Source: Chromatiales bacterium
Lineage (GTDB): Bacteria; Pseudomonadota; Gammaproteobacteria; Chromatiales; Chromatiaceae
Length of the DNA: 36,413 bases
NCBI GenBank assembly: GCA_030145425.1
Contig: JAQYVO010000289.1
Coordinates: forward strand, 1-36,413
Direction: 5' to 3'
Below are positions 2,195-4,934 of the stretch, piece after piece (positions within the stretch are counted from its first letter, which is position 1; each line of letters begins with the position of its first letter). The notes beneath the pieces are model-generated. The model had not been told where the DNA came from. It searched no databases and saw only the letters and a program-made list of their open reading frames with translations. A program made the translations under genes and the position numbers.

Positions 2195-2610
2195 TGCTAG
2201 GCCCTTGAAGAATTCGCTGAATTATACCCAAATTACAATGACATGGCCGCGTCGTTTGAATTCTTGCGGCCGGAAGTCCAAATAGTCGTTTAATTATTGG
2301 TAAAACTACATTAATATCCCGGCGTTATCGATAATGCTGACCCATGTTTTGGGCTCATGATGCATGGAAAATCACTATGGTCTACAAAAAAAATTTCTGT
2401 AACGGGTACTGCCTCAAAGAAGCCTGTACTGGATTGATAGACAATGCCGAAATCCAAAAGCCGCACGGTGGCCGAAACAACGTCGTGAGAGAGCATCACC
2501 GATTTTATGTACTGCGTCTTTTGGGTTTGTCAGTTCCACCCTTTGTATGTAACTGATTAGAGCGCTGACGGTCTGGATCAGCGAGTCGCTTCCAAAACAA
2601 GAGGAACACA
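2195..2610. other. Intergenic region between divergent ubiG and the CHAD gene
   Basis: About 416 bases, more A+T-rich than the flanking genes. Beyond the candidate ubiG -10 box and the Shine-Dalgarno AAGAGGAA before the CHAD start, I find no RNA gene, clear repeat or recognisable protein. Short open frames here resemble no family I know. The CHAD promoter must lie here or nearby; TAATAT at 2312-2317 is a weak -10 candidate. Confidence 0.5.
2221..2226 (-). promoter_or_regulatory. Candidate -10 box for ubiG-mupP-yciK
   Basis: On the reverse strand these bases read TATAAT, a perfect sigma-70 -10 hexamer, about 27 bases before the ubiG start codon. No convincing -35 hexamer sits 16-18 bases upstream, so the promoter is plausible but unproven. 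Confidence 0.35.
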
Positions 2611-4194
2611 ATGTCTACTAATGCTCCCGAATTTCGCCTTTCCGGTGCGCATGCCTTGGCCGGCATAGAATCCGCGCTGAAATCAGAGTTTCGCCTGGAA
2701 GAGGAATCGGAAACAAGATTCGACCACGTCTACTACGATAGCTTCGACTGGCGGTTATACCAGGCGGGTGCCTATCTCCGGCGGGAATTCGAAAAGGACA
2801 GGCGGCACCTGATCATGTCGGGGCTGGGTGATGACAGTCCGAAAGAAAGTGTGGCCTTTACCGGGGATATGCCGCGATTTTATTGGGATTTTCCAGAGAG
2901 TGTCTTGAAAGAAAATATTTCGGACATATTGGATATTAGGGCTTTGCTGCCGTTATTCGAACTCCGGGGTGTGAGCAGGAGTTTCAGGATGCTGGACGAT
3001 GCGCGGAAGACGGTATTGCGAGTCCAGCTGAAGCAGGGTAGTACCTATGATGCCCAGGGTCGAATGGGGACTCACGTCGACGGGATTGTTCGCCTGGTTC
3101 CCGTCAGGGGGTACGAAAAATTCCTCAGAAAGGTATCGCGGTTTCTCACCGCCGAGATGGAACTGGTTGCCGTCACTGGCAGCCTTTTCGACGAGTTGCT
3201 GGCATCCATCGGTAAAGTTCCCAGCGACTACAGTTCGAAGCTCGATTTCTGGTTCACGCCGGACATGTATTCAGAGGCCGTGGCACGCCATATTCATCTG
3301 CATCTTCTCGACACGATTGAGAGCAATATTCCGGGAACCCGCGATGACCTGGATTCCGAATTTCTGCATGACCTGCGGGTCGCTGTGCGACGCACCCGGT
3401 CTGCACTCACCCAGATCAAGGGTGTCTTCCCGGAGGATGTGGTGGAGCGTTTCAAACCGCGCCTTGGCTGGCTCGGTCAGATAACCGGTCCAACCCGTGA
3501 CATGCATGTCTATCTGCTGGCATTCGAGGAGTACCGGGACAGCCTGCCCGAGCGCTATCGCAGGGATCTGGATCCCCTGCATCGCTTTTTGCTGGTTCAT
3601 CAGCGGACTGAACACGAGAAGATGGTGAAGCAGATGGAATCCGAAGAGTTCCTGCAGACACTGGCTGATTGGCGTTCCTATCTGGTAAGTCCGGATCCTG
3701 GGGCATCGGCTCTGCCGAACACCAGGAGTGCCGTTTCGGAGACGGCGGGCAAGCGCATCTACAAAATCTATAGCAGGGTGCTGGATGAGGGGTTGGCCAT
3801 CACGGATGAATCGCCGCCGGAGTCACTGCATGAACTCAGGAAGAATTGTAAAAAGCTGAGATATCTTATCGAGTTTTATAGGAGTATTTATCCAGAAAAA
3901 GACGTCAAACCAGCGATTCGGGCCTTGAAGATCCTGCTGGACAATCTGGGCCTGTTCCAGGACCTTGAAGTACAGGCCCTGAAACTCCAGGAGTTTGCGC
4001 ACCAGATGGGCAAGGAGGGTGAAGTCCCTCCGGATACTCTGTTGGCCATGGGTATGTTGGTGGATGGCCTTATGAAACGGCAGCATCAGGCACGCCACCG
4101 GTTTGGGCAGCGATTTGCCCTGTTCGCAGATAAAGAGAATCGAGACCATTTCAAACGTATGTTCAGCCAGGGCAAGGTGAAACAAGCCGCATGA
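2611..4194 (+). CDS. CYTH-like/CHAD domain protein (probable polyphosphate-associated protein)
   Basis: A protein of 527 residues. The first 230 or so resemble a divergent CYTH (triphosphate tunnel) domain: HVYYDSFDWRLYQAGAYLR is typical, but the EXEXK catalytic motif is not evident, so enzymatic activity is doubtful. From about 235 to 515 there is a CHAD domain with its two histidine/arginine helices, LHDLRVAVRRTRS (from 252) and LHELRKNCKKLRY (from 406). CHAD domains bind polyphosphate and can localise to polyphosphate or PHB granules; that is family knowledge. The start is supported by AGAGGA seven bases before the ATG. The stop overlaps the ParA-type gene by ATGA, so the two are translationally coupled. 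I infer a role in polyphosphate binding or granule handling. Confidence 0.9.
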   Translation: MSTNAPEFRLSGAHALAGIESALKSEFRLEEESETRFDHVYYDSFDWRLYQAGAYLRREFEKDRRHLIMSGLGDDSPKESVAFTGDMPRFYWDFPESVLKENISDILDIRALLPLFELRGVSRSFRMLDDARKTVLRVQLKQGSTYDAQGRMGTHVDGIVRLVPVRGYEKFLRKVSRFLTAEMELVAVTGSLFDELLASIGKVPSDYSSKLDFWFTPDMYSEAVARHIHLHLLDTIESNIPGTRDDLDSEFLHDLRVAVRRTRSALTQIKGVFPEDVVERFKPRLGWLGQITGPTRDMHVYLLAFEEYRDSLPERYRRDLDPLHRFLLVHQRTEHEKMVKQMESEEFLQTLADWRSYLVSPDPGASALPNTRSAVSETAGKRIYKIYSRVLDEGLAITDESPPESLHELRKNCKKLRYLIEFYRSIYPEKDVKPAIRALKILLDNLGLFQDLEVQALKLQEFAHQMGKEGEVPPDTLLAMGMLVDGLMKRQHQARHRFGQRFALFADKENRDHFKRMFSQGKVKQAA

Positions 4195-4934
4195 GAATTA
4201 TCGGTGTATACAATATAAAAGGCGGTGTCGGCAAGACGGCAACGGCGGTGAATCTGGCTTTTCTGTCGGCTCAGGAAGGCCACAGGACGCTCATCTGGGA
4301 TCTGGATCCACAGGCGGCTGCAACTTTCTATCTCCGGGTTAAACCCAAGATCAAGGGTGGCAGTCGTAAAATGTTCCGGGGTAAGCGGGAACTGGACGGA
4401 TTAATCAAGGGTACGGATTTCGAGAATCTGGATCTTCTGCCGGCGGAGTTTTCCTACCGAAACATGGATTTGATGCTCAGCGAACGGAAAAAGCCGGCTA
4501 GACAGTTGCTGAGACTGCTGCGGCCGTTGTCGGAACAGTTCGATAATGTCATTCTCGACTGCCCGCCGAATATCTCCCTGGTTTCGGAGAATATTTTCAG
4601 GGCCGCAGATGCACTGCTGATCCCGACCATCCCCGGCACCTTGTCCATCAGAGCCTATCACCAACTGCTGGATTATCTTCGGGAAAACAAGGTCAGAGGT
4701 GTTGACCTGATGCCTTTCTTTTCCATGGTGGATCGAGACAAACACCTCCAGGCGGAGGTCATGCAGGATATGACGGCTTCAAATCCCGAGATGCTCTCTG
4801 CACGCATTCCTTATGACGGCGACGTGGAAAAAATGGGCATTCATCGCGCACCGGTGGGTGAGTTCGCGCCTCAGACCAATGCCTGGGAGGCCTACCGGGC
4901 ATTGTGGGCTGAGGTTGTGCAGCGCCTTAAATAG
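4191..4934 (+). CDS. Orphan ParA/MinD-type ATPase coupled to the CHAD gene
   Basis: A deviant Walker-A ATPase of 247 residues. KGGVGKT is at 10-16 with both the signature and the catalytic lysine, the Walker A' motif WDLDPQ is at 36-41, and the Walker B stretch VILDCPP is at 120-126. Such ATPases form ATP-dependent dimers that bind DNA or membrane and position plasmids, chromosomes, carboxysomes or chemoreceptor arrays. There is no ParB gene and no parS-like repeat nearby, so this is an orphan ParA. It overlaps the CHAD gene by four bases and ends five bases from the convergent RND gene. The natural inference is that its cargo or adaptor is the CHAD protein. Confidence 0.92.
   Translation: MRIIGVYNIKGGVGKTATAVNLAFLSAQEGHRTLIWDLDPQAAATFYLRVKPKIKGGSRKMFRGKRELDGLIKGTDFENLDLLPAEFSYRNMDLMLSERKKPARQLLRLLRPLSEQFDNVILDCPPNISLVSENIFRAADALLIPTIPGTLSIRAYHQLLDYLRENKVRGVDLMPFFSMVDRDKHLQAEVMQDMTASNPEMLSARIPYDGDVEKMGIHRAPVGEFAPQTNAWEAYRALWAEVVQRLK

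Follow-up and report, generated by a model that had tools for sequence, protein, structure and literature searches.

A CHAD-ParA gene pair conserved across bacterial phyla and its possible role in positioning polyphosphate granules

The window, a stretch of 36,413 nucleotides from a Chromatiales bacterium, corresponds to contig C98 of the host's 3.79-Mb draft genome, which is 91% complete. Two overlapping genes occupy positions 2611-4934 of its forward strand. The first encodes a protein in which a triphosphate tunnel (TTM)-like domain precedes a CHAD domain, and the second encodes a ParA-type ATPase. The features of this pair are the following.

2600..2605, + strand: Shine-Dalgarno-like AGAGGA ahead of the CHAD start, read from the sequence
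2611..4194, + strand: TTM-like and CHAD protein, 527 aa, proposed cargo adaptor (ORF, Pfam, AlphaFold2)
2611..3270, + strand: N-terminal TTM/CYTH-fold domain, aa 1-220, without the catalytic ExExK (Foldseek, motif scan)
3007..3009, + strand: K133, predicted ParA contact; lysine in 82/82 rows with ParA versus 3/18 without
3106..3114, + strand: R166-G167-Y168, second turn tracking ParA, predicted contact (column ranking, model strand order)
3271..4170, + strand: CHAD domain, long form with a central basic pore, aa 221-520 (Pfam CHAD; Foldseek to 6qva)
3367..3864, + strand: polyphosphate-contact residues H253, R256, R260, R296 and R417/Y418, aligned to CtCHAD
4191..4194, + strand: four-base ATGA overlap, with the ParA start inside the CHAD stop (sequence)
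4191..4934, + strand: ParA-type ATPase, 247 aa (ORF, Pfam, alignment, tree, Foldseek)
4218..4238, + strand: deviant Walker A motif KGGVGKT, aa 10-16, invariant in 81/81 family members

The earlier note on this DNA described a CHAD gene that overlaps a ParA gene by four bases, with an intact KGGVGKT and with neither ParB nor a parS-like repeat nearby, and each of these points is borne out. A Pfam scan of 14 window ORFs revealed no ParB domain, and the window contains no parS-like site at up to three mismatches, no notable repeats, and no Pho-box-like site near the pair. Carboxysome shell-protein domains are likewise absent from the scanned ORFs, as is an McdB-like protein, the partner here being the TTM-CHAD protein. 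On the upstream side, ubiG (1475-2194) and a gene for a MupP/Gph-type HAD phosphatase (799-1518) are transcribed away from the pair; downstream and convergent are an RND-type efflux pump gene and a membrane-fusion gene, their identity assigned from sequence. The RND pump was considered as a partner of the pair and rejected, as it adjoins the pair in just three near relatives, labelled Sedimenticola.

The AlphaFold2 model of the CHAD protein is of high confidence (pLDDT 92.4, pTM 0.89). Its C-terminal half is matched by Pfam CHAD (E=9.6e-54, aa 231-458) and superimposes on the CtCHAD-polyphosphate complex 6qva with a TMt of 0.90 at 32% identity (Foldseek). Mutations that weaken polyphosphate (polyP) binding by CtCHAD affect H253, R256, R260, R296 and R418/Y419 (PMC6537752), and the window protein retains all of the residues tested there (H253, R256, R260, R296, R417 and Y418). 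The pore is intact in 58/58 CHADs of a-type and other non-b pairs. An intact pore was also tried as a mark of ParA linkage and was rejected; CHADs without ParA conserve it equally, so that the pore indicates polyP binding and not linkage to ParA. Judged by these residues, the window protein should bind polyP, in agreement with what the note had supposed for its CHAD domain. By fold, the N-terminal half resembles triphosphate tunnel enzymes (SaTTM 7ns8, thiamine triphosphatases, 3bhd and 3tvl; Foldseek). The CYTH-like N-terminus proposed in the note thus holds as a fold assignment, but as a sequence match it is weak, with an E value of 0.0041 that lies below the cut-off. The catalytic ExExK motif is absent from the window protein and is found in 0/50 ParA-linked CHAD proteins. 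The CHAD fold and all tested polyP contacts are shared with the CHAD phosins and CtCHAD (6qva), and the order of TTM and CHAD is that of E. coli YgiF; unlike any of these, the window protein combines a TTM domain that lacks the catalytic motif with a surface patch that tracks ParA.

The ATPase matches Pfam AAA_31 (E=7e-35) and reaches the curated cut-off of no NCBIfam equivalog. Beyond the invariant KGGVGKT, DLDPQ is present in 78/81 family members and Walker B is kept across the family. The closest folds are those of Soj/ParA (Foldseek E about 1e-16 to 1e-19), not FleN or BcsQ, and the chain stops at the canonical last helix, and so lacks a MinD-type C-terminal extension. These data support a Soj/ParA-like ATPase, in line with the ParA type named in the note, and not a ParA of phage or partition origin. 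Chromosomal ParA/Soj of ParABS systems provides the nearest solved fold and shares the motifs, but the window ParA is only about 30% identical to it, falls in a separate clade, is found without ParB or parS, and carries other basic residues in the DNA-binding region. Two arginines of ParA are conserved for DNA binding, R195 and R224 in CcParA (PMC7229837). By alignment-assigned positions, the R195 equivalent is basic (R) in most of the family and D183 in the window, and the arginine at the R224 equivalent is not kept, the residue there not being basic.

Among 55 relatives, ParA matches fall into two groups, one at 50-93% identity and one at about 30%. A CHAD ORF lies directly upstream of every examined ParA of at least 50% identity and of none in the group at about 30%. 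Across 146 genomes of the host family, 69/75 ParA copies are found directly behind a same-strand CHAD gene; as for the six exceptions, G011 has a CHAD gene upstream after all, G272 contributes one fragment of a broken ParA that lies behind CHAD, and one is a contig fragment. Among the best 80 relatives in a GTDB scan, about 53 have CHAD directly upstream, and the measured gaps include a 4-base overlap in 25 and a 1-base overlap in 11. A ParA tree separates the family from ordinary ParAs with full support and places CHAD-linked members in Gamma-, Beta- and Alphaproteobacteria, Myxococcota and Actinomycetota, although several tree members are metagenome bins, so that single placements may be wrong. 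Methylotuvimicrobium buryatense 5G is among the bacteria that carry the pair. Among the findings that would count against its proposal, the note had named a lack of conservation beyond close relatives; the adjacency survey instead finds the pair in several phyla. Coupling of CHAD and ParA in dozens of genera is more than chance would produce.

This conservation bears on the reading of the locus as the remnant of a partition system, derived from a plasmid or phage, that happens to lie beside an unrelated CHAD gene. A ParA with KGGVGKT would fit such a remnant, and some homologues are plasmid-borne, but a pair kept across phyla, the missing parS-like site, viral contigs that hold no relative of the window ParA above 31% identity, and chromosomal housekeeping neighbours all contradict it, as do the linkage data, leaving it next to no probability.

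CHAD and ParA also co-occur at the level of whole genomes. In the host family, CHAD is present in 65/66 genomes with ParA versus 41/80 without (Fisher p 6e-12, shared ancestry ignored), and in a sample of 199 Pseudomonadota genomes it is present in 42/49 versus 60/150 (p 2e-8, shared ancestry ignored), CHAD being undetected in 7/49 ParA genomes of this phylum sample. Where the locus around ParA lacks a CHAD neighbour, CHAD is found elsewhere in 17/18 such genomes. CHAD without ParA is thus common and ParA without CHAD rare, which fits a cargo adaptor and its positioner. One clade, of 21 ParAs, consists of solitary genes for which no conserved neighbour of another kind was found.

The host has a second CHAD-ParA pair, on contig C41 (11900-17500). 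The two types of pair, a and b, are paralogues whose ParAs are about 53% and whose CHADs are about 26% identical, and wherever a genome has two pairs (7/7), each ParA accompanies the CHAD of its own type, a with a and b with b. This cognate matching, together with linkage in 69/75 copies and co-occurrence in 65/66 genomes, makes it very probable that CHAD and ParA are functional partners, as the note had taken them to be. The b-type CHADs have lost the pore residues R256, R410 and R417, and have kept H253, R296 and mostly Y418; with the pore half-degenerate, their cargo is perhaps a different one. In the second pair of G272, the CHAD gene is intact, and the b-type ParA behind it is disrupted and split in two.

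A candidate for the surface that joins the two proteins comes from ranking the columns of the CHAD alignment by their lowest conservation in any ParA-bearing genome group minus their conservation without ParA. The top three of the 527 columns are Y168, K133 and R166, and all three fall within the catalytically dead TTM-like domain. At position 133, lysine is present in 49/49 linked proteins, in 10/10 of b-type, in 5/5 deep-branching and in 18/18 non-adjacent ones, versus 3/18 without ParA. Three rows are to be discounted, as L196 duplicates L289, L105 has the same sequence as L296, and L200 proves to be a linked copy; about 79 ParA-associated rows remain, all with lysine at K133. Judged by strand order in the model, the K133 turn and the R166-G167-Y168 turn would lie at the same end of the barrel. 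Eight b-type CHADs with a degenerate pore, the host's among them, keep both K133 and [KR]G[YF]. In two genomes with a solitary ParA, the divergent CHAD proteins that were read do not carry the contact motif. These residues are a candidate ATPase contact, and as the set without ParA stems from just one to three independent losses, the correlation is a lead and not proof.

Taken together, these properties are consistent with a two-protein system of the ParA/MinD kind that positions polyP granules, which we regard as the best available mechanism, with a probability of roughly 0.5. Through its CHAD domain the adaptor would hold polyP and so sit on the granule, and its dead TTM-like domain would bind a ParA dimer via the patch around K133 and R166-G167-Y168, this contact triggering the ATPase. 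ATP-bound ParA would occupy the nucleoid and be released wherever CHAD-coated granules are, and the resulting ParA gradient would space the granules and share them between daughter cells. Physical contact, stimulation of the ATPase, nucleoid binding and the granule as cargo are the steps that we infer. Known partners of ParA/MinD ATPases usually touch the ATPase, as shown or suggested, through a basic disordered N-terminus (PMC10241942). Such an N-terminus is absent from the window CHAD protein, whose first 15 residues have a net charge of 0 and which is folded from residue 7 in the AlphaFold2 model. A basic C-terminal tail was considered as the ParA-activating peptide and rejected, its charge being the same whether or not a CHAD is linked to ParA (p=0.90). 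Granule positioning thus has to contend with this atypical N-terminus, the partial DNA-binding arginines, the solitary ParA clade, the ParA genomes (7/49) without CHAD, and the lack of PPK1 in the host.

The supply of polyP in the host is relevant to this last point. PPK1 is absent from the drafts of the host and two congeners, and five PPK2 genes are present in the host, with 4-5 per genome across host and congeners. PPK2 is found in 66/66 ParA genomes of the family; polyP synthesis is therefore possible in the host, though unproven. A positive co-occurrence of PPK1 and ParA was looked for and rejected, PPK1 being rarer with ParA (37/66 versus 60/80). Many further relatives within the family also lack PPK1 and possess PPK2. 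In other bacteria, genes of polyP metabolism adjoin the pair itself: ppk1 lies directly upstream of it at three loci and, at a fourth, 2.6 kb past ParA on the downstream side, and Paracoccus plasmids have the order CHAD-ParA-CYTH-NUDIX, their separate CYTH genes keeping ExExK.

A further reading keeps the positioning ATPase but gives it a different cargo, such as an enzyme cluster organised by CHAD or a store of another kind. A host without PPK1, a second type of pair that retains ParA yet has lost R256, R410 and R417, and several methanotroph ParAs that lack an adjacent CHAD and adjoin glycogen phosphorylase would be accommodated by such a cargo. It is nevertheless improbable for the window's own pair, since the polyP contacts are invariant in this pair type (58/58), the host has five PPK2 genes, and ppk1 adjoins the pair elsewhere.

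By analogy with BcsQ or FleN, which act on enzymes or transcription factors, the ATPase might instead be a regulatory switch of polyP metabolism, in which ATP-bound ParA would bind the TTM-like domain and control access to polyP or a polyP kinase. The presence of ppk1, CYTH and NUDIX genes beside some pairs is consistent with a switch, as are the partly kept canonical DNA-binding arginines of ParA and a partner without a basic disordered N-terminus. We consider it somewhat unlikely, as ExExK is missing in 50/50 pairs, so that the pair holds no enzyme to be switched, and as Soj/ParA, not FleN or BcsQ, provide the nearest folds.

The missing catalytic motif also weighs against the view, published for the ppk1-parA-CYTH-CHAD operon of Acidithiobacillus, that this is a cAMP signalling operon (PMC6416229). 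The CYTH-CHAD protein would there be a polyP-regulated class IV adenylate cyclase, and ParA a link to cell division. With ExExK absent from the window protein and from 50/50 linked CHADs, this can claim very little probability for the pair described here. The Acidithiobacillus adjacency of parA, CHAD and ppk1 has also been read as plasmid partition (PMC10892726). Compared by published gene order, the ppk1-parA-CYTH/CHAD operon (PMC6416229, PMC10892726) resembles the window in having parA beside CHAD, but its CYTH active site is reported intact, in contrast to the TTM domain of the window protein.

Granule positioning on the nucleoid has a precedent in AlgP of Pseudomonas aeruginosa, for which the same role, the spacing of polyP granules, has been proposed. 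AlgP is, however, a histone H1-like DNA binder without an ATPase, and has no homology to the CHAD-ParA pair. By analogy, ParA and CHAD could form a static tether that fastens polyP to the nucleoid without ATP-driven movement, and AlgP does show that attachment of granules to the nucleoid matters (PMC9239181, PMC13052382). The family-wide retention of the ATPase-cycle residues (KGGVGKT, DLDPQ and Walker B), which a passive tether would not need, makes this very improbable. Another parallel to the proposed positioning system is McdA/McdB, which positions carboxysomes, likewise cytoplasmic bodies, and in which a ParA-type ATPase is also encoded with an unrelated adaptor and without ParB or parS. 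In the pair described here, by contrast, the TTM-CHAD adaptor is folded and has no basic disordered N-terminus, the proposed cargo is polyP, and the identity of the window ParA to McdA chains is only 22-24%.

The spacing and inheritance of polyP granules in bacteria is an open question, on which a 2025 review names AlgP as the sole spacing factor and leaves the use of energy to be seen (PMC13052382). The side-by-side pair in several phyla suggests active spacing or sharing of polyP granules in some bacteria, which has so far been shown for no bacterium, and it supplies an ATPase, an adaptor and three residues to mutate. A search that covered neither preprint servers nor most subscription papers found no published proposal of a ParA-CHAD positioning system. 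More tentatively, the pair could be the first ATP-driven system for positioning and partitioning polyP granules, spread over several phyla and using a dead triphosphate-tunnel domain as the ParA-activating adaptor, with two orthogonal versions in some bacteria, the second perhaps for a different cargo. If this is true, the known cargos of the ParA/MinD ATPases would come to include a storage polymer, and orphan ParAs of one family would gain a partner.

Several further gene neighborhoods were observed among the relatives. At two loci, a gene for an H+-translocating pyrophosphatase lies one gene upstream of the CHAD-ParA pair. In methanotrophs, seven loci with a family ParA that lacks an adjacent CHAD have glycogen phosphorylase following ParA, and at six methanotroph loci an MgtE-type Mg transporter gene is found downstream of ParA; Mg is a counter-ion of polyP. 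A more distant ParA (38% identity) on plasmid pMAQU02 of Marinobacter nauticus VT8 lies close to phbB and other carbon-metabolism genes.
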